A stretch of 64,000 bases of DNA, taken from positions 10,623,241-10,687,240 of the forward strand of contig NC_049986.1 of the NCBI RefSeq assembly GCF_000003815.2, in the 5' to 3' direction. The notes below the pieces were generated by a model that was not told where the DNA came from, ran no database searches, and saw nothing but the letters and a program-made list of their open reading frames with translations. The position numbers and the translations under genes are program-made. Below, one piece after another: positions 18,340 to 58,039 of this stretch. Numbering within the stretch: position 1 is the stretch's first letter; each line of letters opens with the position of its first letter. The DNA is from Branchiostoma floridae. Lineage: Eukaryota > Chordata > Leptocardii > Amphioxiformes > Branchiostomatidae.

Positions 18340-18795
18340 CATCATCATAATCTGTCGCCCCTGGCTGGTGGGCGGGGTGAGGCGATGCACAACATCCCTC
18401 CACAGCACACGGTCTTTCATGGCTGCTACCAAGTCCCCAGTGTCAATCCCTGTGTCTGTGGAAATGATTGCTGGGTAGGTGAGCTTCCTCGAGTAGGACT
18501 TTCCTCTAGATAGGTCTCCATAGGAGGAGTGAAGAGATCATCTCTTCACTTGAGCGATGACAGTGACCTGCAAACTGGACACGCCTCTGCCTGAGGCTGT
18601 GTGATACTCGGGCAAGTTTACCGTAGATGGTCTTGATGGATGCATGTTCTTTCCCGTTGATGTTCTTTGCTGTGCGCAGAAGTGAGGTGTATGTTCCATC
18701 GAGTCCCTTCTCCTGGCGTGTGGTCAATGTCCAAGTTTCAGAGCCATAGAGAAGTACAGGTTCAACAATGGTGCGAAAAACTTTTAACATATTCA
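18340..18795 (-). mobile_element. 5'-truncated non-LTR retrotransposon (LINE) 3' fragment with TSD
   Basis: The - strand encodes the part downstream of a reverse transcriptase domain typical of endonuclease/RT LINEs: YGSETWTL, LDGTYTSLLR, RRVQFAGHCHR, SSEEMISSLLLW. After about 18505 the match continues in another frame (LTYPAIISTDTG, AAMKDRVLWRDVV), so there is at least one frameshift and the copy is dead. The 3' end is an ATG-repeat tail (CAT repeats on +, 18338-18347). The 8-bp direct repeat AGTAACAT flanks it (18332-18339 and 18796-18803). The insertion splits a unit of the host tandem array. Assignment to CR1/L2/RTE-like clades is uncertain. Confidence 0.85.
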
Positions 18796-19110
18796 AGTAA
18801 CATATTTGCTCTACGATTTGTTGTTGTAAACTACCAGAGGTTTAAAAACAGAGTTTCCACCCGTGAAACTAATTTTTGTCGTTGGAACATAAACTTTGAC
18901 TGGTATACTTTTTTTACAGGGATACCAATTATAAGGATCTTTCTCTATGGCATGTACACAGTGCTCTTGTCGTTTGCAAACAAGGAATCAATATTCTGGC
19001 CAATATTAGTCCGACTCCTAAAACGTTTACATTTCACAGGATTTTGGTGCTACAGTTATATGATAACACGACTTGTTTTTTTCTACGACGTGCAAACTAC
19101 CATACATGGA

Positions 19111-20665: not shown

Positions 20666-23600
20666 TACCTTTACCTTCTGTCTGCAGTACTCTGTACTAC
20701 GTATGTGACACTATTAATACCAACTTGAGTGCAGTGCCACATTGGCTTCGTCTGTTCAAAAAGCAAGTAGAAACAAAATTCTAGATTCTTAGAGCAACAC
20801 CAAAAACGATAATTGGTAGTCTGAAATTGAAAATAGAAAAAGGTTATGATGTTAAAACTTAGCCCCATGTTTGTACGAAGATTAGATTCATTTTTTTTAA
20901 ATTATTGCACTACATTTTGTGTCAAGGACGCTAATTTTAATGTTTCAATGACGTTGATTAAACGATATTGCACAGAACGTGTAAAACCTTTTATAACATT
21001 TTCAACCCTGTGTTGTCATTTATAAGAACATATTGTCTACCATAAGACTATGGATGTGCTTAACAGTATGGGAGGCAATTGAGAGCATTAAGTATAACGA
21101 TCTCCGAGAGAGCCTGTATTACTATTCCACTTTGTCATGGAAAGATGATGTGCTGTGTAATGGATCATTAACAAATCCATTCCTTAAGTACAACGGATTT
21201 CTAGGTGCCGAGTAGTACACGTATATCTTTCGAATCAATAAATTTCAAAACACAAAAAAATCTACTAAAAATACATATTTTTCACCCATTTGTTTCATTC
21301 ATATGTGTTACATACGTTAGAACTGGAATCCTTAAAAGCTGTCGTCCAGAAAATGATAAAATGTACCTGCTTTGTCTCACCAAGAATACATTTACGGCTT
21401 TGGCTAGACACAGTCTGTCTAATATATAAAATGAAAACAGCTGGTACGACTTTGTAAATGGGAGTATGTAGGGTAAATGAAGGTTGATTTAATCATTTCT
21501 GTCACATCTATTATTCTTAGTGCAATGGATGGGCTGTACAGCGTGCACGTAATAACAATAGATTTACCGAGCACGACGGGAGGCTCCATCATATGTTCGT
21601 TACATCAGATGTACAAAGATATGAGCTCATAACGAATTAGTGGGATATAAGCGCAAATGGTTACGGATTGTATCCATGCATTTATTACGTTTATCATTTA
21701 GGGAGATCTGTCCGGATCAAAAGCACACTGTTCTCCCAGACTTCCCTGTCCCTCATATAGTTTCTTAGATCATCCATCTGCAACTACACGTCCCAAACAA
21801 TCTGGTGTATGTAAAGGTGGTATTTTACTGTACTTGGGGCACCAACGCGACACAGTGGGGTTCGAAAGATTACTTAACGAATTTCAAAGGTAAAGAACGA
21901 ATTTTCTTACGTTTTGTGTATTTTGTTGTTTTCTAAGACATTCTTTTACGTTTTACATACACAATATCTGAATTATAAAAAGATAAATCGGCAAAAAATA
22001 CAACAGTGCCAAAGTGAACGAATACCGCAGTGCCGCACCGGTGCCCAAAGTGCAGTGAGATACCACCTTAAGTCAGTTGAGGTCGCCTAGCATGCGAATA
22101 CCCGTTTGTTGGTTTCCACAGAATGAGTTCACGTACAAGGTCTTCTTTGTTCCTGAAGCAGATCGAACAAATCTGGTCCTATGGTCTCTGTTGATTGTTG
22201 ATATCTTGCATTACGCTTGTTTTTTTTTACTTATCACTTTAAAATATGACAATTAGTAAGACTACCTGCATCAATTTTAAAAGTAAATAATATTAACTGG
22301 TTTATTCCTTCAAATTATGTATTCTTTACTCTGTTAAATAAAAAGACAATAGCATGTCAAGTTAAAAAGATTTAATAAACGGACGTTTCGCTGCAGTACC
22401 AAGGTCAACCACGTGCACCTGGCGGTGCAAAACCAATCTTGACTTCCCAAAACATAGCAACGTGGCAAATATCAATGTAATCCACCCCCCCCCACACACA
22501 CACACAGACAGACACACGCACACGCCATACATCGCCATTTTCATAAAGGTAACAAACATGGCAAATAATATCTAAACACATTTACATGTTTATTTACAGC
22601 ATCATCATCATTCTAGTGCGTTGCTTATTCTGAACCCCTAGCTTGACGTATTCCTAAAACGGTACGCTGGAATTGTTTGCCACACTACCTAAGCGTATCA
22701 TAGGAACTCCAGTGAATCGCACTGATTAGAAGCATCGCTATCCCTAGCGGCACTAACTCAAATCTAATTACCAAACACACAAGGGGAGCTATTTCCTACA
22801 AAAAGCCGTTAAACTGAAAAGCGTACTCTACAAGCAATTTGACTCAGGTTGTTTATAATGTATCCTCATGCGTTTTTGCCTTGATTTTTATTTCCCCCCA
22901 TTTACTCGCCGATGGACATGACGAAAAGGGGGGGGGGGGGGCACAAAGCCTACATCATGAAAGAAATACCCCAGCCTAACGAAAATCTCTGATTGTAGAG
23001 TAGTAAAAAGGAGAGGCAAAAGAAGACAAGCGCAATCTAAATACCAAAGCGGGCATGCAATCTAACACTGCACGTAGTGGCATTTCTATTTCATCTAGAA
23101 GATATGAGAGCTCATAACACAGCGTCCTTGAAGACTGACCCTTTTATTTGCGGCTGCAGAACTTGCCATCGATGACTGATCTACTGTTCTAGGTCGTTGG
23201 CGTTGGCATTATACGTCTTCCGCAGATATTTCTCCAAGGTCACCCCAGGTACCATATTGCCTTGGCTACTTCTTCTGCATCAATGAATGCAATGAAAAAT
23301 GAAATACACTTTATTAGTTAGTGTGCTCAATAAGAGAATACACCGTGATGAAAAACTCCGACGTTCAGCCGAATTCTTACCTTGCTCGATGACATGCTTG
23401 ATCTGATGTAATTTGAACCGAAGTTGGATTCTATTTAGGATCATGTGAAGTACTTGCAAGTTTCCGTTGTATAAACCGTTTTCCGGGCAATAGGTCTAAT
23501 CTGAAATGTTGTTAAGCTTTATCCTATACCTCGCTCACCAGACATGCTTCTGAACGAAAAGGTTTGCAGTTTGCAGAACAGGGCATAAGTTGTGGTCCAC

Positions 23601-27835: not shown

Positions 27836-28270
27836 TGACGTAATTGCTCAAAATCCAAGATGGCCGCCAATAGCATGATGAAAAGTATAACCTGCTTTTT
27901 TTCACTCGGAATTCATCACTACCTGATATTTTCTTACAGAAAACATTCATTTGAACGTTTTCAATCCATTTTCATGAGGTTAAGCGTTATGTTGTAAAAA
28001 ATGTGTCTTAAGACATTCAAGGTTGATAATTAAAGATAGCGGATGTCAAAACTACAGTTGACGTCATTGTATGACGTCATTTTACGTCATTTTGACGTCG
28101 TTGCGTCATTTTCCGACAGCAGAAGTCTTATAACACTTAAATATTGATAAGAAGTCTTTATTGGTAACTTTTTGACTGAGATATTTAGGTACTATGGGAA
28201 TTCCCCGTTTAAGCCCAAAAAATCAATTAATGACGTCATAATGACGTCATATTACGTCATAAATATATAG
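27836..28270. repeat. CRE-motif-rich, probably repeat-derived stretch
   Basis: Perfect TGACGTCA occurs at 28059-28066, 28072-28079, 28231-28238 and 28242-28249. Near matches (TACGTCA, TGACGTCG, TGCGTCA, TGACGTAA) lie between and before them, and AAGATGGCCGCCAAT lies near 27861. Similar motifs at 7979-8010 suggest an interspersed repeat carrying these sites rather than a single enhancer. Confidence 0.5.
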
Positions 28271-31200: not shown

Positions 31201-32454
31201 GTTAAGGTTTTGAGTTAGACAATTTTTGTACGTATCCTTTTGGTTAATTTAATTAACCAACTGAAGTTTTTTTTTTAGACTCTAAAAATACATCACACAT
31301 CAATTGTTAGAATATTGTTAACATCGATAATCTCTTTGTATTACACATTTAGCCCCATATAAACAACTACAGATACCACATCGGCTAGTTCGTCTTTCAC
31401 TAACACAGGCAAAATTCTACAGGACCATAAATAACAAAGTTCACTACTTCGGAGACTCCAGAGATGTACTATGTACCTTATTTCTTTACAATGTAATATA
31501 CAGTAAAAGTTTTATAGTCTCATCACATCGTCGTAAGCTGCACAGTTACCTGCGTGACATGTCGACGAGACGGCCGTCATACATCAAACCGGTAAACAGT
31601 GAATTTAACGCGCCTAGGAACACCAAAGTGCACAAAAGTCCTAGTGTAATGTGATCGGAATTGCTTCTTCACCGAACATTACTGGAATTTGATCGACCAT
31701 AATAATTCTGCGCATTACATATAGGTCGAAGGTCCCTCTAGTTCTTGAAGGAAACTGATGAGTACTCAGTCCACCGGGCACTAGGAATTACCTCTAGGCA
31801 AGCAGATACCCGACACTGCACATAAAACAAGAAATTTCCAATCTAGGATACCATTGTTGAAGAAATAGTCAATCTCTGCTTCTCTAACACTCTCTAAATC
31901 TTGTTGTGGCCGCAAACTCCGTCTAGCTCAGTAAAAGTAAATTAAGAGCACATCCCAGGGCAAGTGTGTCAGAAATTATTTCTGAATTCTCGGTAACTCA
32001 GCGGTGATTAGAGATGATTGATCTACCAGAATGTATACCATGGGAGGCGGAGACCTGATTGCCAGTGTCTGATTACATTCTGAAATGATTTATACATAGA
32101 TAAAACAGGCTTATACGTGTTTTTTTACTGTATTGTCCGCTGATATGATATTTTCATTAAGTTTATACAAACATGGGCAACGATAAGATGAATAAGCAAT
32201 ATATAAATTGTACAGATACCCATATTTCCTAAAACACAAATTCCATAGTAAACGATATTTAATGGCGGCATCAGATCTAGAGAGGGAGTTTTTTTTTGCT
32301 ATGCGGAGATCCTAAGAAGAAAGCATTCACAGATTAACCGGATAAATGTCTTGGAGGTAATAGGCAGGTAGACGTTAAATTGATTTACATTTAAATCAAA
32401 AAATTCAAGTTGTATACTGGAAATTTAAATATCAATCTAGTCTAATGATGGCCG
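28271..32454. other. Non-coding intergenic DNA
   Basis: No gene recognised. Overlapping frames at 29935-30349 (65-101 codons on both strands) show no domain. Microsatellites: CATA repeats near 30332-30346 and GAAT repeats near 30524-30542. Confidence 0.4.
30199..30252 (+). repeat. Dispersed repeat family R2, copy 3
   Basis: CTGACTGGTT, then GCACTGCAGCTAGGTGTCGC and TGTTAACAGATGGGA. It is the cleanest copy of the first half; the GCGGTCCCAAACG end is degraded. Confidence 0.6.
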
Positions 32455-32720
32455 TAAGGCACCTGTTGTAGAATACCCCGGATGTAAACAAATGAAGAGA
32501 TCGCTCTCATCACGTCAAGTTGCGCGAAGTTACTTTTCAAATATGCCATATATTATCGCGTATCGTCAGTCTAATCTACTGACGTCCGGATGGCACCCGA
32601 AGCAGAATACCCCGGATGCAAATAAAAGAAGCGATCGCTCGCATGACGTATCGCTCGCAAGTTGTGCAAAGGTACTTTTCAAACACATAATTTATCAATT
32701 TGAAGAAATTGTACGTATTA
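32455..32720. repeat. Tandem duplication, two units of about 134 bp
   Basis: GAATACCCCGGATG starts at 32471 and 32605. Both are followed by AAA-AA-GAAG-GATCGCTC, then CATCACGTC/CATGACGTA, AAGTTG-GC-AA and TACTTTTCAAA. The unit structure is clear despite divergence. A 93-codon open frame across it is repeat-derived. Confidence 0.75.
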
Positions 32721-33038: not shown

Positions 33039-33047
33039 ACAGATGTC
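33039..33047 (+). repeat. Possible target-site duplication, left copy
   Basis: ACAGATGTC is found here and at 38550-38558, just outside the two ends of the palindromic element. The inverted-repeat match starts 3 bp (left) and 4 bp (right) inside it. Confidence 0.5.
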
Positions 33048-33050
33048 AAT

Positions 33051-34905
33051 AGGGGCTGCACGAGCAACCTCCATGGAGGAGCTCTACAGAGCTGACCTCC
33101 ATGGAGGTTGCTCGTTCAGCCCTCCAGCTCCACCGTGCGAGCTCTATGCGCTATGAATACAAACACTTGGTTCTCGTCACCTTCATGGAATTTTTAGTAC
33201 GACATGGAGGAGGTTCTCTCGTAGAGGACAAACAACCGGACTGAACAGCTGTACGCAAAACATGGTACACGGGCTATGAATGTTTTTTGATTCACGTCAC
33301 CCAAAACAAATTGGTCTTAGCGCTCTATGCAGTAACAGAGGGCTGTTTGAGTAGCGCTCTACGGGTTATGACTGTAAACACTTCGTTCACGAAACCCAAA
33401 ACAAATCGGTCTTAGGGCTCCATTCAGAGATACTGTAAACAACAAACACACAGAGCCGATAGCTGATCGAGCAGCTCCACGGGCTATATAAATGTAAACA
33501 CTTGGTTCACGTCATTATCAACAAATCGGTGTTTAGGGCTCCATACAGAGATATTGTAAACAACAAACACACGGAGCCGAAAGCTGTTTGAGCAGCTCCA
33601 CGGGCTATATAAATGTAAACACTTGGTTCACGTCACCATCAACAAATCGGTGTTTAGGGCTCTTTACAGGGATATTGTAAACAACAAACACACAGAGCCG
33701 ATAGCTGTTTGAGCTGCTCCACGGGCTATATTAATGTAAACATTTGGTTCACGTCACCATCAACAAATCGGTGTTTAGGGCTCCATACAGAGATACTGTA
33801 AACAACAAACACACGGAGCCGAAAGCTGTTTGAGCAGCTCCACGGGCTATATAAATGTAAACACTTGGTTCACGTCACCATCAACAAATCGGTGTTTAGG
33901 GCTCCATACACAGATATTGTAAACAACAAACACACTGAGCCGATAGCTATTTGAGCAGCTCCACAGGCTATATGAATGTAAACACTTGGTTCACGTCACC
34001 ATCAACAAATCGGTGTTTAGGGCTCCATACAGGGATACTGTAAACAACAAACACACTGAGCCGATAACTGATCAAGCAGCTCCACGGGCTATATGAAAGT
34101 AAACACTTGGTTCACGTTACCATTAACAAATCGGTGTTTAGGGCTCCATACAGAGATACTGTAAACAACAAACACACTGAGCCGATAACTGATCAAGCAG
34201 CTCCACGGGCTATATGAATGTAAACACTTGGTTCACGTCACCATCAACAAATCGGTGTTTAGGGCTCTTTACAGGGATATTGTGAACAACAAACACACAG
34301 AGCCGATAGCTGTTTGAGCAGCTCCACGGGCTATGAATGTAAACATTTGGTTCACGTCACCCAAAACAAATCGGTCAGAGGTCTGTCCAAGCAGCCCTCT
34401 ACGGGCTTTGAATGTAAACATTTGGTTCACGTCACCCAAAACAAATCGGTCAGAGGTCTGTCCAAGCAGCCCTCTACGGGCTTTGAATGTAAACATTTGG
34501 TTCACGTCACCCAAAACAAATCGGTCAGAGGTCTGTCCAAGCAGCGCTCCACGGGCTTTACAGAGATACTGTTAACAACAAACACACGGAGCCGAAAGCT
34601 GTTTGAGCAGCTCCACGGGCTATATAAATGTAAACACTTGGTTCACGTCACCATCAACAAATCGGTGTTTAGGGCTCCATACAGAGATACTGTAAGCAAC
34701 AAACACACGGAGCCGAAAGCTGTTTGAGCAGCTCCACGGGCTATATAAATGTAAACACTTGGTTCACGTCACCATCAACAAATCAGTGTTTAGGGCTCCA
34801 TACAGAGATACTGTAAACAACAAACACACGGAGCCGATAGCTGTTTGAGCAGCTCCACGGGCTATATAAATGTAAACACTTGGTTCACGTCACCCAAAAC
34901 AAATC
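33051..34905 (+). repeat. Left inverted arm of the foldback element
   Basis: From the outside inward: terminal hairpin; a unique part with TTCATGGAATTTTTAGTACG and CAAACAACCGGACTGAACAG; then repeats. The ACAAATCGG motif recurs every 121 bp from 33521 to 34247, then every 75 bp (34366, 34441, 34516), then 121-bp units resume to 34856. That is about ten 121-bp units and three 75-bp units. The 75-bp form lacks the GTAAACAACAAACACAC segment. Confidence 0.85.
33060..33115. repeat. Terminal hairpin, left end
   Basis: ACGAGCAACCTCCATGGAGG (33060-33079) and its exact reverse complement (33096-33115) are separated by 16 bp. CCTCCATGGAGG is itself palindromic. Confidence 0.85.
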
Positions 34906-35027
34906 CACCCATCCTTGTCGGATACGGGCAATGAGGTAAAACTTCCTTGGAACGAGGTTTGCAACAGGTCTAAATATTTCTTTTATGCAACCACATGTTG
35001 TTTTTGCAAAGTGGGCAACAGAAGGCA

Positions 35028-35127
35028 NNNNNNNNNNNNNNNNNNNNNNNNNNNNNNNNNNNNNNNNNNNNNNNNNNNNNNNNNNNNNNNNNNNNNNNNN
35101 NNNNNNNNNNNNNNNNNNNNNNNNNNN
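35028..35127. other. Assembly gap, 100 N
   Basis: Exactly 100 unknown bases, which suggests a gap of standard size. It lies inside the centre of the palindromic element. Open frames across it are artefacts. Confidence 0.98.
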
Positions 35128-35221
35128 AATGCACACAAACACTAGGGATAATTATTATTTTTTGTAAGGATTGGACAAGGGAGGCTAAAAAATCCTGGGT
35201 TTGTTCAAAGGTTGAAGGAAC

Positions 35222-35400
35222 AAAAAACAACCCGGTTATGAATGAAGCAAGCGGGCCATGTTCATATGCGGGCTCTCCCAAGGAAAGCTGAAAGTTCGCC
35301 CCTTCGTGCTAATCAGAAATCGTCTCAAAAGCGCGCCCTTGCCACACCAGAACACTGACGCCAGAAGCAGCTGGCTTTCTGGCCTATGACGTAGTCCCCA
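35222..35400 (+). repeat. Inner inverted repeat of the element centre, left copy
   Basis: Matches the reverse complement of about 36526-36680: AACAACCC, TGAATGAAGC, GGGCTCTC, AAGTTCGC, CGTGCTAATC, GAAATCG, CCACACCAG, ACACTGACGCC and GAAGCAGCTGGCTT in order, with scattered mismatches. Confidence 0.7.
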
Positions 35401-36525
35401 AACAGAGGTCCGTGGGGAAAATCGTGACCATTTCCTTTGATTCATATTTTTTTTGAAGGTCGAAAAAAATTATGAAAGGAAAAGGTCGCGATTTTCCCAC
35501 CAACCTCTGCTTGACAGAACAACGAGCTTCTCGAAACCTCTGTATGAAGTAATTTGTTACAAATAACCTTTCCATACATGTACAAGTGTTGATTCTGAGG
35601 ATCATGAACATCAAAGATAGGTTGGTCAGTAACTGGCAGTAACATAACATTTTTCTTTAGAACCATTTGAGCTGTAAATCTAAACTTGGCCTACCGTGTG
35701 CAATGTTTATATGGATAGAGATCAGTGGGTGCTGTAGGTATCTAATGTATTTTTCATCAGTTGTACATGTACAGTGCTTTATGCCTTTGTTATCAGTTAC
35801 TCTAGAAAAATTGATAAAGCAAAGGTTATGTCGTAACATAAAAAAATACAGATAATGATATATGTATAAACCCCCTGCGGGTACTAGTATATCCTCAGTT
35901 GCAGTCTTCGAACAGGTCTGGTTTTGGGGTGGGGGGAAGGGGATTACGATTTTCAACGTTGGCTAGGTTGTCTTGTGCCAGTTTGCTGTGGAAGGCGAAA
36001 CTCCCTTCCTCGGCAAACTCCCTTCCTAAGCGAACACCCTTCCTCGGCAAACCCCCTTCCTCGAACGTCCTTGCTCGAACTTATGTAATGTCTAAGAGAA
36101 CTTATGTAGTGTTTAAAATCGCGAAAAACTCATATGAATTAAGTCAGATTTGTGTGTTTCTTTGATCGCCAATCAGATCAGGCCTAAGGTTAATAGACTT
36201 AATAAGTACCAAACTCAGACGAAGGAGTGTAGTGATCACAAAAGGTGTCCTTTGCCTGAATTGCGAAGAGCTTACAAACTTGTGTTCAATATTAAAACCT
36301 TTGAGATTAATATTGATTCAATACTAGTAGTCAAAGATAGTTTGCGAAAACTGTACTTTGACATTATAGTACTGTTCCCAAGGACCTTATATCATTTTTG
36401 CTCTACCAGACTGCATGACCCACTCTCCAATCTAGCATGTACAGGTTAGTAGAGTCTTCAACATTGTGAACATCTCATATGCCGGTAGGACCAGCGGGGA
36501 AATTTTACTCGACCAACATCTGCTT

Positions 36526-36680
36526 GGAAAGTTATACGACGATAAGCCAGCTGCTTCCGGCGTCAGTGTCCTGGTGTGGTAAGGGCGATTTCGGATTAGC
36601 ACGGAGGTGCGAACTTCGGGCATTCCTGGCGAGAGCCAACAAACCGCTTCATTCAATTAATGGGTTGTTTTTACCAATGT
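36526..36680 (-). repeat. Inner inverted repeat of the element centre, right copy
   Basis: Partner of 35222-35400. A third, more diverged copy in the same orientation as this one lies at about 37060-37130 (GAATTAGCATAAAGGTGCGA). Separately, 34963-35027 and 36886-36950 are direct copies of each other (AACAGGTC-AAATAT-TCTTTATG). Confidence 0.65.
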
Positions 36681-37263
36681 CTGATAGAACGTCCTTGTTT
36701 TTACGGAATGCATAAGAGCTCTACTAGTCGCAAATTTAGTGTGCATTTCCCAAAGCTCATTTGAATTCAAATCCGTGTGTTTTTTGGTAATGAATCGTAT
36801 AAAATAACTATAAATTCTTACATTTTACGAAAGCCGTTATATTCTTATAAAAGCAGGCACCCCTTCTTTAGAGATCTCCTCATAACAGGTCAAAATATAT
36901 CTTTATGAAGCCATATGTGTTGTTTTTTTCGTATTGAACCAAAAATGTTAATCTCCAAGCAGATTTCCGGTGGCATTAAAAAAGTAACATAAGCTGGGGT
37001 AGGAATTAGCCAGCAAAGGAGGATAATTTGCCAAAGATGTCTACAAACTTGTTACAGGGCTGAGCCTGAAGTAAACCAAAACAGAATTAGCATAAAGGTG
37101 CGAAGTTTCTGCATTCTTTACAATGGCAAACAAGTATCAGTATTCTCTCAGCAGAGGTTGGGTCACCACGTGAAGGGAGCGAACCGATAAATTCCGACTA
37201 CTAGTACTTTTCCCAACTCACTATTCTGTGACCAAAAATCCGCTTGAAGAAAAAAATATTCAC

Positions 37264-38545
37264 TTTCTTGGGTAATTCACGTGAACCAGATGTTTACATA
37301 TATAGCCCGTAGAGCTGCTCAAACAGCCCTCCGTTTACCGTATAGAGCCCTAAGACCGATTTGTTTGGGTGACTTGAATCAAATTTTTACATTCAAAGCC
37401 CGTGGAGCGCTGCTTGGACAGACCTCTGACCGATTTGTTTTGGGTGACGTGAACCAGATGTTTACATTCAAAGCCCGTAGAGGGCTGCTTGCACAGACCT
37501 CTGACCGATTTGTTTTGGGTGACGTGAAACAAATGTTTACATTCAAAGCCCGTAGAGGGCTGCTTGGACAGACCTCTGACCGATTTGTTTTGGGTGACGT
37601 GAACCAAGTGTTTACATTCATATAGCCCGTGGAGTTGCTCGATCAGTTATCGGCTCCGTGTGTTTGTTGTTTACAGTATCTCTCTATGGAGCCCTAAACA
37701 CCGATTTGTTGATGGTGACGCGAACCAAGTGTTTACATTTATATAGCCCGTGGAGCTGCTCAAACAGCTTTCGGCTCCGTGTGTTTGTTGTTTACAGTAT
37801 CTCTGTATGGAGCCCTAAACACCGATTTGTTGATGGTGACGTGAACCAAGTGTTTACATTCATATAGCCCGTGGAGTTGCTCGATCAGTTATCGGCTCAG
37901 TGTGTTTGTTGTTTACAGTATCCCTGTATAGAGCCCTAAACACCGATTTGTTGATGGTGACGTGAACCAAGTGTTTACATTCATATAGCCCGTGGAGTTG
38001 CTCGATCAGTTATCGGCTCAGTGTGTTTGTTGTTTACAGTATCCCTGTATAGAGCCCTAAACACCGATTTGTTGATGGTGACGTGAACCAAGTGTTTACC
38101 TTCATATAGCCCGTGGAGCTGCTCAAACAGCTATCGGCTCCGTGTGTTTGTTGTTTACAGTATCTCTGAATGGGAGCCCTAAGACCGATTTGTTTTGGGT
38201 TTCGTGAACCAAGTGTTTACAGTCATAACCCGTAGAGCGCTACTCAAACAGCCCTCTGTTACTGTATAGAGCGCTAAGATCAATTGGTGTTTTGGGTGAC
38301 GTGAATCAAAAAACATTCATAGCCCGTGTACCATGTTTTGCGTACAGCTGTTCAGTCCGGTTGTTTGTCCTCTACGAGAGAACCTCCTCCATGTCGTACT
38401 AAAAATTCCATGAAGGTGACGAGAACCAAGTGTTTGTATTCATAGCGCATAGAGCTCGCACGGTGGAGCTGGAGGGCTGAACGAGCAACCTCCATGGAGG
38501 TCAGCTCTGTAGAGCTCCTCCATGGAGGTTGCTCGTGCAGCCCCT
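37264..38545 (-). repeat. Right inverted arm of the foldback element
   Basis: Reverse complement of the left arm with fewer units: about three 75-bp units (37390-37620), four to five 121-bp units (37620-38190), then the unique outer part and the terminal hairpin. The module order mirrors the left arm but copy number differs, so the arms have changed length independently. Confidence 0.85.
38481..38536. repeat. Terminal hairpin, right end
   Basis: The same 20-bp arms occur at 38481-38500 and 38517-38536, as expected from the inverted arms. Confidence 0.85.
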
Positions 38546-38549
38546 TCTC

Positions 38550-38558
38550 ACAGATGTC
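38550..38558 (+). repeat. Possible target-site duplication, right copy
   Basis: ACAGATGTC, identical to 33039-33047. Confidence 0.5.
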
Positions 38559-53807: not shown

Positions 53808-55661
53808 TCAGACTTGCGTCTCGACCTTTGATGCTTTGGACTTTTTCAGCGTCCCGTTAGCCTGTTTTTCAATGTCTACTTTGATGTCTATACTGTATAT
53901 ATCAGGCGGCGGCATCTCTACCGATTCTGGTTCTTTTTCCATCTGGTGTCTACAACAACAATACTTCCCACAGCAACATGAGCTATCGTCTTCGTGCTTC
54001 TTTTTTGTTCTTTCCCTTGATTTACACTTCTTTTGTAGGAACCGTTTCCTCTCGTTACATCGCCTACAGAGAAAGCAGATTCCCCAGACTGATAGCCCCA
54101 ACACAACGATGCCCGCGATTGAACTCACGATAACACTCAAATGGTCGAACTTTTTGGACCCTAATGGGTCGTAGTCATCACCATCTTCATCAACGGCAAC
54201 CGTATCGCTAGGGGGCATAGTAGGAGGTTTGTATGTCAGATTCCATCTGTTGGTGGTGTTTAGATTGACATTAGGCCAGTTTTGCTCATCAAGCCCTAGT
54301 GTGCACACTGATGGGTCGAAGTCATCTTCCATAGGTTCCTCCAATACGGGGATATCAGTGATGTACGCCCTTGTTGTGACATTCAGTGTGGTTATAACAG
54401 ACTGGCTGCCGCCGGGGTTTCGTGCAATACATCGGTACACGCCTGCGTCGTGCAGGGTGACTCTTGTAATGTTCAAACTGCCGTCGTTGAAGACCTTCAC
54501 ACGAACCTCGTAGTTGCCGTGTCGTATTGTTGTACCGTTAGGGGTTATCCAGCTTATGGCGGTTTCACGACCTGAAACACACGGCAACGATGCGTCCTCG
54601 CCCTCTGTAACATTCAGCTGGATCGAATAGTTGCTTATCTTCCGTCGAGGGCAGCGGAATATATCTATCGGAAGACGAAATACGGATGTTCCTAATAGTC
54701 TCTTCGGGTATCGACATTCTCCGCAAGCATCACAAGTTCTATCACGTACCTTTGTTCGCAGCCATTCCACCAGCCACGTTATGTCACAGCTGCAGTTCCA
54801 AGGGTTATATTTCAGGTTCACCTTCCCTAACGATGTCGTCGCAGCGAAGAGGTTGTATGGTAATGTGCTAAGGTTGTTGTACGAAAGGTCTAATTCACTT
54901 AGAGCCTGCAAATCTTCAAAGGCTAGCGGTTCAACCTCGTTCACTTGGGACGAAATAATCATCAGTCGTCTGAGTCTGAACATACTCTGGAACGATGTTC
55001 GCCCGAGGACCCTGATGACATTCCCTGATAGATTCAACTCTTCCAGACTGGTTAGATGCTGCAGATAAGGCACTGTCTGTAAGTTAGCGACTCCCATGTT
55101 CAGATAAACTAGGCTGTTCAAACCCGCAAAGGCGCTATTTGAGATCCCCCTAAGCTGCCTCAGTTCCCCCAAATCCAAGAGTTTGAGATTCGGCAGATAG
55201 GAGAAGCTGTAGGCGTCCAGACAAACTATCGGATTGCCTCCTAACCATAATTCTTTCAAGTTGATTAGTGACTTCAGCGCTCCGCTAGGAACCACTAGCA
55301 AGTTGTTGTAAAACAGCTCGATGATTTGCAAATTGTCCAGACCAACAAAGGCATTATTGTCGATCTCAGATATGGTGTTTGCGCTGAGCTGGAGCGTATG
55401 TAACTGTGGCAAGTTTGCAAATTGGTTCTTGATGAGTTTGCTAATGTTGTTGGCGTGGAGGTTGAGATAAACAACTCTCTCGGGGATTCTGTTGGGGACC
55501 TTTGTGAGATTGCTATCGCCGCAGTAGACGTTAGAGAACGATCCGCTACAGACACAGATCCTCGGACAGTTGTTGGTATACACGGGGGAAAAGGTAATTA
55601 GCAGGAGAAATGACAGGAAGCGGAGGTTAAGAGGTTTCTCGGTAGACGGGCGTGGAGCCAT
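53808..55661 (-). CDS. LRR-Ig single-pass receptor, LRRC4/netrin-G-ligand-like, complete, single coding exon
   Basis: 617 residues in one uninterrupted frame. Domains in order: basic then hydrophobic signal peptide (1 to about 30); LRRNT with CPRICVC (32-38) and a fourth Cys at 47; about nine leucine-rich repeats (about 63-285), including LDLGELRQL (162-170), which resembles the signature of vertebrate LRRC4/NGL proteins; LRRCT starting at NPWNCSCDI (286-294) with Cys 310, 313, 316 and 337; one Ig domain (about 343-428; Cys361, Trp371, DAGVYRC at 405-411); a stalk with sequons; a membrane helix (about 508-531); and an 86-residue tail with a Cys cluster (562-570), PPPDIYSID (585-592) and C-terminal ETQV. 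In vertebrates NGLs bind netrin-Gs or LAR phosphatases and recruit PSD-95 through a terminal PDZ ligand. A similar adhesion role is inferred here. The first Met precedes a good signal peptide, which supports this start. AMIGO, LINGO or LRRN relatives are less likely given the layout. Amphioxus is known for expanded LRR-Ig families. About 140 bases upstream is an AATAAATAAGG stretch (55803-55813, minus) that could be TATA-like, but this is weak. Confidence 0.92.
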   Translation of the reverse strand: MAPRPSTEKPLNLRFLSFLLLITFSPVYTNNCPRICVCSGSFSNVYCGDSNLTKVPNRIPERVVYLNLHANNISKLIKNQFANLPQLHTLQLSANTISEIDNNAFVGLDNLQIIELFYNNLLVVPSGALKSLINLKELWLGGNPIVCLDAYSFSYLPNLKLLDLGELRQLRGISNSAFAGLNSLVYLNMGVANLQTVPYLQHLTSLEELNLSGNVIRVLGRTSFQSMFRLRRLMIISSQVNEVEPLAFEDLQALSELDLSYNNLSTLPYNLFAATTSLGKVNLKYNPWNCSCDITWLVEWLRTKVRDRTCDACGECRYPKRLLGTSVFRLPIDIFRCPRRKISNYSIQLNVTEGEDASLPCVSGRETAISWITPNGTTIRHGNYEVRVKVFNDGSLNITRVTLHDAGVYRCIARNPGGSQSVITTLNVTTRAYITDIPVLEEPMEDDFDPSVCTLGLDEQNWPNVNLNTTNRWNLTYKPPTMPPSDTVAVDEDGDDYDPLGSKKFDHLSVIVSSIAGIVVLGLSVWGICFLCRRCNERKRFLQKKCKSRERTKKKHEDDSSCCCGKYCCCRHQMEKEPESVEMPPPDIYSIDIKVDIEKQANGTLKKSKASKVETQV

Positions 55662-58039
55662 AATCAGATTCTGTCGTTACCCAACAGCAAGCTAGGACAG
55701 TATCGAGATAGCAAAGCACGGTGGCACTTTTCACGGCGCCGAATGAACACAGCATCAGGTCACGAGTTCTCTTCTCCGTGAAACGACTTCCAATCAACCT
55801 TCCTTATTTATTGCTATCAGGCCCGAGGTTCTTAGAATCTACGCAAACAAATACATACATTGAATACCTTCTTCAGAAGTCATGGTCAATCAGACGATGG
55901 CCATCTTCATTCACTGGTTATATGGAATCACGACGGCTAAATTGATGGTGCTGCAGAGAGGTGAATACCTTCTTGTCAAGCTTCATCGTGCAATGATGTC
56001 ACCGGTCCTTTGTCTTCATTATAGCTCCAATTACGTTCAGAGAAAGATGCCCTTGCTTCCAATTGAATCAGGCTGCAGTGACGACTCTGTCCGATTGCCG
56101 CCGGATCCATGAGGAATTGCTTCCCGCGGTGATGCTCCATGGGGCACGTACTGCCGTCATCAGGGGGCGGACGGCACTGTCACACCCACCGCATCGACTG
56201 ACAAGTGAGAGCCGCTTACCCGTGGCACATCGGTACGTCCCTATTGACCTGCAGGGGAAGGAGATTCACATAGCAAATCCTCCATTGTATCGACTTGTAC
56301 AAATTGGCATCCCACTACTGCGGATATGCTAAACTTAGCGTGTCGCACGTAATTACGGCAAGGGGCAGAAGATCGACGGCAACGGCTTTACTACATATTC
56401 AAGTGGCAACTAATTCTCACTATTGTGTGAAATCGATACAAAGCGCTATATGAGCACTATTTCCCTTTCACTTTCTTCACTTTTCTTTTTATTGTTGTAT
56501 GCAGTACAGGGCAGTGACCGAAAGACATTACGTCATTTTCTAAAGATACTTTTAATGTTATGCTAGGTTGCATTTTTTTTTCAATTTTGAATGAATGACT
56601 CTTGCAAAATTTGACATATTATCAAGTAACATTCGCCGTAGAGTAAAACCCTCAGGTTTGGTGACAAATGAAAAGCAAAAAATAAGTACGAAAAAATCTG
56701 AAAATAGAAATACTAAATGCAGTGCAAGATTCCTGAAATCATAGTCTATAAACAAGAAAGACAATCTAATATCAAATCATTGATCATTAGAACTTGTATA
56801 TCTGATTTTGATGTATGCTCAAGAAACGACTTTCAGAATAAGCTAGGCATATCAACTTTCTTTCTTAATGTACTTTCAATAAATTTGCAATCATGCCTCG
56901 TCATGGTCTGTGATAAAACAATGCACAGCGTGGTATTTCCCATCATTGTAATTCCATTATTCATGATGGGTTTCCAGTCAAAATCATTTATTTGTATGGT
57001 TGGCCAGTACCATGTGCAAGGGTATTTCCTAACGCAATTTTCGCTGATATTTTAAGAGAGAAGACTCATAAAACTACTCAGAATCGTCAAGCATCACCGA
57101 AATTGGACCGGTAAAATAATGCAGTCATAATTCCAGTCTTGTTTGTTTACGTTCGACCATTTTACAGCAAGCTAAAGGAGGTCAATTCTTTCACCGATGA
57201 TCAATACCTTGGTAATGAGGGGGACCAACCAGGGTTAAGCGTGATCCTTAGATTGAAATTGTGTAATTACAGTTCCACACTTAACAAGTAACTAAAACAT
57301 GCTGCTTTCAAAATTTACTGACCCTCCAACCTATGATATTTGAAAATAAGTAAATATATTCAGCTTCACTCTTTGATGTCAATTTGAAACATAATTCTTA
57401 TGTTTAGTTTCAAATTATATTGAGAGTTTGCTTTATCTCCCACGTTAAAACGTGAATTTTACTGAAAGTGCGAAAATCTGAAGAAATTTTAAAGATTTCA
57501 AAGAGCGCTCTATGAATTTCATTGATAAAGAAAGGCATTTATCTACGCACATTAGATACTGCTGTTTCTTTTGTAAAGGCCTGATGTTTTTATTTTTCTT
57601 TAAAGGTATGTGAAGCAGAGATACAAGTTAAGACGCGGCGACGCCGCCAATGCCAATGAGATCCAGCTTTAACAATTCCCTTGATACTAGGTCACTAGTG
57701 ATATATTGTGGATTACAACGCTGCATTTATGGAGTGACTTTTTCAGCTTTTATTTTCCAAGTCGTCTAAACAGCTCTGTACTTCCGGATGAGCAGAAAGA
57801 GCTCTCGAGGTGCTGTATCTATCGATTGCTCGCCCCCAGATGGCTCAGAAGTTAAGTGCTCCGTCCTCCAAGCTATGGGTAATACATGTCTAAATCCCCA
57901 TGTCCTCCATAGGTCGAGTACAGTCAATTCAGACCGTAATTATCTAGGAGATCCTGGAGGAAGAGGCCGCGGGCTTGAGGATTTTCGCCACCGGGGAATT
58001 GTCCTGGGATCATCTGCGCGATAACAGAGCTACCAACTC
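55662..58039. other. 5' flank of the LRR-Ig gene
   Basis: Presumed 5' UTR and promoter of the - strand gene. 56050-56250 is GC-richer with several CpGs. No certain TATA box or upstream exon. A weak tRNA-like head (ATGGCTCAG-AGTTAAGTGCTC, near 57841) may be a SINE remnant. Confidence 0.35.

Follow-up and report, generated by a model that had tools for sequence, protein, structure and literature searches.

We report that the structure at positions 33047-38549 of a 64,000-nucleotide stretch of the Branchiostoma floridae genome (contig NC_049986.1, positions 10,623,241 to 10,687,240; hereafter the window) is, with high confidence, a copy of a family of non-autonomous cut-and-paste DNA transposons with foldback anatomy. 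This copy is flanked by an exact 8-bp target-site duplication, ACAGATGT, at 33039-33046 and 38550-38557. Its termini read CAAT-AGGGGCTGCACG on the left and CGTGCAGCCCCT-TCTC on the right; written inward, the two ends are CAAT-AGGGGCTG and GAGA-AGGGGCTG. The initial annotation had suspected a foldback element at 33051-38545. These positions delimit the inverted repeat itself correctly; because a conserved tetranucleotide stands outside each inverted repeat, the true element is 4 bases longer on each side. A 9-bp duplication, ACAGATGTC, was also considered for the window copy (chance 4e-4) and dropped in favour of 8 bp, because its ninth base already belongs to the tip, as the C of CAAT. The family shows the features of the foldback class: inverted arms made of variable tandem repeats, dispersed copies with common termini, a short duplication, and a variable, mostly non-coding middle. 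The parts of the window copy are as follows.

33039..33046 (+): left 8-bp target-site duplication, ACAGATGT, with the same 8 bp at 38550-38557
33047..33050 (+): CAAT tip, outside the inverted repeat, from the tip reads of the two-ended copies
33053..33122 (+): left terminal hairpin, a near-perfect palindrome of 70 bp (-40.4 kcal/mol, z -9.1)
33121..33353 (+): left arm, two diverged repeat units (alignment scores 34 and 33)
33354..34318 (+): left arm, eight units of 119-121 bp (L2-L9), from the unit comparison
34319..34609 (+): left arm, three units of the 75-bp type (L10-L12), the last a 141-bp hybrid, from the unit comparison
34610..34905 (+): left arm, two further 121-bp units and a partial unit (L13-L15), unmirrored in the right arm
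34906..37259 (no strand): non-coding middle domain, from comparison with the sister copy L019
35028-35127 (no strand): gap of 100 N inside the middle domain
37260..37410 (-): right arm, two aberrant inner units (R10, R11)
37411..37635 (-): right arm, three 75-bp units (R7-R9)
37636..38240 (-): right arm, five 121-bp units (R2-R6)
38241..38475 (-): right arm, diverged outer units
38474..38543 (-): right terminal hairpin, the identical mirror of 33053-33122
38546..38549 (+): TCTC tip, GAGA when read inward
38550..38557 (+): right 8-bp target-site duplication, ACAGATGT

In the left arm, Tandem Repeats Finder located 121-bp units at 33342-34905 and 75-bp units at 34322-34559; in the right arm the corresponding stretches are 37579-38252 (121 bp) and 37354-37634 (75 bp). 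The left and right sets are inverted to each other, as arm-to-arm alignment also showed, so that the inverted arms of 121-bp and 75-bp units described in the initial annotation are present. The proposed terminal hairpin is real as well, since none of 200 shuffles folded as stably. The mirrored module order was borne out only in part. The outermost 258 bp of the arms are identical (258/258, 33051-33308 against 38545-38288), but further inward the agreement is patchy and whole units are absent from the right arm. In addition, the left arm reverts to 121-bp units after its 75-bp units (34610-34905), and the right arm ends in its two aberrant units. What had been read as a unique outer part proved to be diverged repeat: aligned to the 121-bp consensus, 33121-33237 and 33238-33353 reached 34 and 33, whereas no shuffle scored above 13. 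As this is far above the shuffles, beyond the hairpin the arm is a single repeat that is most diverged on the outside. Both arms are thus arrays of one ancestral unit, outer part included.

The best-conserved 15-mer among the seven diverged unit types is TTGGTTCACGTCACC. Allowing up to 3 mismatches, the core motif of the units occurred 25 times, with 15 forward occurrences in the left arm and 10 reverse ones in the right arm, against an expectation of 0.00 from 100 shuffles; a looser version of the motif gave 15 and 11. The arms of ten gap-free copies carry 5-19 forward and 6-18 reverse cores. The motif had no exact match in a virus collection, from which contigs near their own genome were perhaps left out, and Rfam returned nothing at its gathering score. 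Comparison of 15 units of the 121-bp class in the window copy revealed no sorting by arm. The outermost units L2 and R2 pair up, and the inner ones are intermixed (L5 with R5; L7 and L8 with R3 and R4). This pattern fits copying of an arm followed by turnover of its units.

The genome searched comprised 513,431,437 bases in 431 contigs, with the window at C8:10623241-10687240. When the outer 350 bp served as the query, 40 of 227 candidates were scored, and these 40 near-full matches, the window's two included, showed 92-100% identity. As many as 28 of them form 14 inverted pairs, 3.7-8.6 kb apart. A 32-base terminus pattern with up to 3 mismatches gave 59 + 62 = 121 matches, again including the window's two, while the reversed control gave 0 + 0; 100 of the 121 places were listed. 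Because this pattern begins with CAAT, a GAGA tip passes only with an otherwise perfect match, and the search is no gauge of tip variety. Tips were read at 26 places (the window copy and L009-L033) that had been located through the inner 258 bp and not through the tips themselves. Twenty-three of these were two-ended in inverted orientation and were measured; L024, L030 and L031, without a usable second end, were excluded. L035, with a hairpin at the end of an arm, and L094, a copy of about 0.6 kb with the tip GCGA, inner Ns and no clear duplication, were likewise left out of the counts.

The tips were exactly CAAT or GAGA at 44 of the 46 ends. These tetranucleotides are non-complementary and lie outside the inverted repeat, and in 20 of 23 copies one end is CAAT and the other GAGA. 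The exceptions are L011 (CAAA instead of CAAT), L022 (CAA and CAAT) and L028 (GAGA twice). Exact 8-bp duplications were found in 26 of the 33 long two-ended copies whose flanks were examined, namely 19/23 (window copy included), 7/9 further pairs and 0/1 (C8:21135812-21139321). Among the 23, the flanks of L020, L027 and L028 are unrelated and the 8-bp repeat of L022 stands four bases out of place; among the nine further pairs, one matches at 7/8 and one not at all. With the two strands of 19 sites combined, the second base outward from the duplication was G 21, C 11, A 6 and T 0 times. This position carries 0.64 bits, which none of 5000 null draws reached; the next-best position, at 0.15 bits, stays under the mean of the null maxima (0.17). 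The target preference is symmetric, with T absent from this position on either strand.

These footprints also bear on a non-transposon origin. A locally grown inverted satellite or segmental duplication would suit arms that consist of tandem repeats exchanging units, but dispersed copies with exact common ends and 8-bp duplications at unrelated sites refute it, and we give it next to no credence. The repeats are not confined to the window, and at the places matched they are not plain satellite but copies with exact termini. Together with the 14 inverted pairs and the 26 exact duplications, this passes the refutation test set by the initial annotation and supports the foldback reading that it had put forward.

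Single ends were followed as well. Among 36 of them, each with 250 bases, 26 align to the window terminus over at least 137 bases. The remaining ten comprise L075 and L077, which are the hairpin-only copies L090 and L091 described below, L062, which adjoins the hairpin-only copy L093, L065, which enters Ns, and L066, L070, L076, L081, L086 and L088, which align over 42-101 bases and then diverge. The 36 ends indicated no coding relative, although 250 bases would hardly reveal one. L069 (C234:91366, a CAAT end on an unplaced contig) and L086 (C6:26469988, a GAGA end) have the same 8 bp, GGCACGTG, in register, and may stem from a single insertion whose ends the assembly has separated. Other flank matches are off register: L020 shares CCCAGAACC with L024 and L070 one base off, and L030 and L032 share 8 bp two bases off. 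These were taken as chance or common repeat.

Seven copies, L011, L014, L017, L019, L020, L021 and L023, retain the full middle of about 3.1 kb, and L019 shows 96-98% identity to each of the remaining six. The middle of the window copy is 95-99% identical to that of L019, with about 800 bp missing at a junction near 36122-36125, and contains an older internal inverted repeat (35223-35421 with 36672-36504, 68%). An older subfamily comprises L025-L028, L032 and L033, plus L053 by its middle. The two ends of one copy are 78-85% similar in this subfamily (six measured, not L053), in contrast to 96-99.7% in the window's subfamily. Orientation of the middle was judged relative to the CAAT tip in 24 long copies. 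It runs one way in ten (the window copy, L009, L011, L014, L017, L019, L020, L021, L023 and L029) and the opposite way in eight (L010, L012, L018, L025, L026, L027, L032 and L053). It could not be called in six, of which L013, L015 and L016 are filled with Ns, L033 is rearranged, and L022 and L028 have the same tip twice. A middle in either orientation between the tips points to recombination between the arms. L010, L012 and L018 belong to the young subfamily and have a flipped middle with exact duplications kept; the flip thus left the insertion site undisturbed, and exchange between arms is its simplest cause.

The middle is non-coding. The longest stop-free stretch of the L019 middle is 125 amino acids, and L053, at 9.3 kb the longest copy examined, has none above 124 amino acids. 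Pfam revealed no transposase in 13 open reading frames (ORFs) of the window copy (3 + 10) or in ten of the L019 middle, in agreement with the earlier remark that none was visible; the ten ORFs of L019 matched no Pfam family at E values up to 1. A transposase hidden in the N gap of the window copy was considered and is unlikely: L019 has about 38 bp at the same position, and the gap therefore probably conceals no gene. The sole above-cut-off Pfam match in the arms, zf-C3H2C3 (1.3e-9), was rejected as spurious, being a repeated frame through the 75-bp units.

Two readings of the superfamily were weighed. Mobilisation by a superfamily other than MULE that duplicates 8 bp, such as hAT, P, a Zisupton-like or an undescribed one, seems to us an even proposition. 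The duplication size is exactly 8 bp, as this would require. The hAT target pattern is the 8-bp nTnnnnAn; the size thus fits hAT membership but the base preference is absent, T standing at position 2 in 3/19 sites and A at position 7 in 6/19. Moreover, CAATA/GAGAA at the tips departs from the hAT terminal consensus. No P-type match was seen among the 23 ORFs scanned, no search being aimed at the hAT, P or MULE families. Galileo combines a P-type transposase with foldback anatomy, though with 7 bp, in the available text of its reports (PMC3573991, PMC3688188).

Alternatively, the family may belong, without autonomy, to the Mutator-like (MULE, Phantom) superfamily, where Tm1 has been shown to belong and Tetris has been proposed to; we consider this assignment less likely than not. 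In Tm1, short asymmetric motifs separate the duplication from the inverted repeat, the arms are tandem repeats and the transposase is of the Phantom type (PMC3169594), and this nearest structural match points to MULE/Phantom. Tetris, with 8-10-bp duplications, was assigned to Mutator by its authors (PMC4079207, available text), and MULEs have been reported earlier from B. floridae (PMC6446971, available text). However, with the tips taken as ends, each of the 26 exact duplications is 8 bp long, the lower limit of the 8-11-bp, usually 9-bp range, and Tm1 has mostly 9 bp (8-10 bp in 45/53 elements; PMC3169594, same portion). No MULE protein was found among the ORFs scanned, and no MULE transposase was seen in the copies examined, which cover in full a minority of the loci of the 121 ends. 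In the portion of PMC6446971 available, its authors did not find MULE transposases in B. floridae either; this and the strict 8 bp point away from MULE.

Six copies, 54-82 bp long, consist of the hairpin only, and four of them have exact 8-bp duplications. These four are L036 (82 bp, GTAATTTG on each side), L090 (80 bp, GCTGGGTC), L093 (82 bp, ATAAATGC) and L095 (TCATTTTC), the CAAT end of which is altered. L034 (80 bp) has the tip TTTC instead of TCTC and a duplication matching at 6/8; it lies between two diverged copies of a local duplication of about 100 bp. In L091 (54 bp, contig C200) the duplication matches at 7/8. Of 500 aligned left-flank columns, L091 shares 493 with a long C8 copy, and among the ends at the 100 places listed these two alone carry a private base (CTACACG). 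The pair resembles a single insertion present in two haplotypes or duplicates, collapsed in one and long in the other, but the following 9 kb of C8 did not contain the C200 right flank, which counts against a simple allelic pair. Both terminal hairpins contain the palindrome CCTCCATGGAGG, which therefore stands as direct repeats flanking the interior. Slippage between these would yield a hairpin-only product, and the 'nearly precise excision' of bacterial Tn10 is an analogue of such a collapse.

We consider it rather doubtful that the hairpin-only copies are transposed mini-elements instead of leftovers of long copies. In favour of transposition, the four exact duplications are at distinct sites, and three of these four copies have both tips, L095 having one altered; against it, the 54-bp copy on C200 and the long copy on C8, one imperfect case, seem to derive from one insertion. 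A bolder proposal, to which we assign a low probability, is that the CAAT/GAGA tips and a single hairpin of about 70 bp are the full cis-requirement of a perhaps undescribed transposase that duplicates 8 bp. If so, about 80 bp of hairpin would suffice as a complete mobile unit, among the smallest known, with the kilobase arms as optional amplifiers that grew through repeat expansion.

Comparison of the flanks of 105 ends revealed a possible composite. The 8 bp GTGTCAAG beside the right end (C8:21139321) of the copy C8:21135812-21139321, which has no duplication of its own, is the same, in register, as that beside the left end of L028 (C8:21092513); about 0.08 such matches would be expected among 105 ends, as estimated from 4^8. 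The two outer sites are 46.8 kb apart on the same contig, with about 37.5 kb between the two copies. The right outer flank lies within a stretch of about 250 bp of an interspersed repeat with 39 further scored matches, and five intact copies of this repeat were picked from 40 rows for a junction test. The outer flanks joined at one GTGTCAAG aligned without a break to 5/5 repeat copies at 86-89% identity. In contrast, the control joins (L028 left with its own right flank; second copy left with the outer right flank) matched on one half only. The 46.8-kb stretch therefore interrupts one repeat copy at an 8-bp duplication. This interspersed repeat (L099-L103), of high copy number in the genome, served as the empty-site control.

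Whether C8:21092513-21139321 moved as one composite unit, or arose by recombination or a false assembly join, is in our judgement evenly balanced. GTGTCAAG adjoins both outermost tips and the joined outer flanks span the junction where the control joins do not, as a composite would predict. On the other hand, the outermost tips are both GAGA, where copies usually pair CAAT with GAGA, a search of C200:600500-609000 did not recover the inner part, and a 100-N gap in the second copy makes a false join possible there, L028 being gap-free. The giant foldback elements of Drosophila are such composite units, bounded by two copies.

Foldback anatomy is shared by the Drosophila FB elements, pairs of which can carry long chromosome stretches, and the sea urchin TU elements, which make 8-bp duplications; both have short repeat units. 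Three further described systems, each compared through the available parts of its reports, resemble the lancelet family. Tm1, a Mutator/Foldback element of root-knot nematodes, likewise has composite repeat arms of variable length and non-inverted motifs and is mostly non-autonomous; unlike the family here, with 4-bp tips, 75/121-bp units, 8-bp duplications and no transposase found, it has 7-bp tips, a 14-bp unit, mostly 9-bp duplications and a transposase-bearing copy (PMC3169594). Tetris of Drosophila virilis is alike in its flanking domain with tandem units (about 220 bp), its non-coding variable middle, its 8-10-bp duplications and the lack of a found transposase; its authors suggested that the units derive from the flanking domain (PMC4079207). 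It belongs to an unrelated taxon, its repeats also form satellites, and the accessible text mentions neither a terminal hairpin nor asymmetric tips (PMC4079207). Galileo, of the P superfamily in Drosophila, also has long, internally repetitive arms with unequal unit numbers and chimeric copies with non-matching flanks, but makes 7-bp duplications, has a known P-type transposase and has units of about 210 bp in one subfamily (PMC3573991, PMC3688188). As far as its accessible text goes, the repeats of Galileo bind the DNA-binding domain of the transposase (PMC3688188). No lancelet foldback element appeared among the titles and opening parts of abstracts listed from the literature searched for foldback transposons and amphioxus/Branchiostoma, where the one paper that joined foldback with Branchiostoma concerned the cattle tick. 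The kind of element is known and the family is new within that literature; Repbase or Dfam may already list it.

Taken as a foldback transposon family, the copies suggest the following life cycle. A transposase encoded elsewhere would cut at both tips and stagger the target by 8 bp; a fixed stagger and a mildly preferred, symmetric target are what a DDE-type enzyme acting on both tips would leave. Since the tips usually differ, the enzyme may distinguish a left from a right end, and the same-tip copies indicate that such a rule would not be strict. The repeat units could form an array of secondary transposase-binding sites with TTGGTTCACGTCACC as the putative core, and by analogy with Galileo they probably serve in this way (PMC3688188). 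Arm length may change via unequal exchange, the middle may flip when both arms of a single copy recombine, and recombination between copies may produce chimeras without matching duplications. Deletion between the terminal palindromes could leave the 54-82-bp hairpin remnants, and two copies might at times move jointly with the intervening DNA.

Several points weigh against this interpretation. Seven of the 33 long copies are without an exact duplication, and L028, with GAGA at both ends, and L022, with CAA(T) at both, depart from the two-tip rule. No transposase was found in a limited search (Pfam on the 23 ORFs, ORF length only elsewhere), and long runs of N in several copies (6,623 bases in L013) mean that genes there, or spliced or decayed genes, would escape it. 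For a binding-site role of the units, the support from this genome is one observation, the conservation of the 15-mer across seven unit types. The copies demonstrate past insertion; the claim does not extend to present activity.

Other features of the window were noted. Just upstream of the window copy, 32432-32683 holds a direct duplication of about 110 bp (76%). A single-exon gene at 53808-55676 (-) encodes a 622-amino-acid protein of the LRR-Ig (leucine-rich repeat, immunoglobulin) transmembrane type (Pfam LRR_8 1.1e-37, I-set 1.3e-11). Two short arrays of about 11-bp units with TGACGTCA, at 28058-28099 and 28228-28262 and about 130 bp apart, are possibly a small element with repeat-built ends. 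A 256-bp candidate small inverted-repeat element with 51-bp arms (76% complementary) occupies 21814-22069. Finally, a 111-amino-acid open frame at 18506-18841 (-) resembles by eye a fragment of a non-LTR (long terminal repeat) retroelement and has no Pfam match.

The family adds to the foldback class a many-copy lancelet member with clear insertion footprints. Much of its life cycle can be followed in one genome, including arm expansion, inversion of the middle, copies with unmatched flanks and collapse to the hairpin, and perhaps also the carriage of about 37 kb of host DNA between two copies. Its tips, terminal hairpins, hairpin-only collapse and possible composite will interest specialists. 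The two 4-bp tips, the 8-bp stagger and the base preference two positions outside the duplication offer a handle for finding the transposase, and the role of foldback arms becomes testable by binding assays on the 15-bp core.

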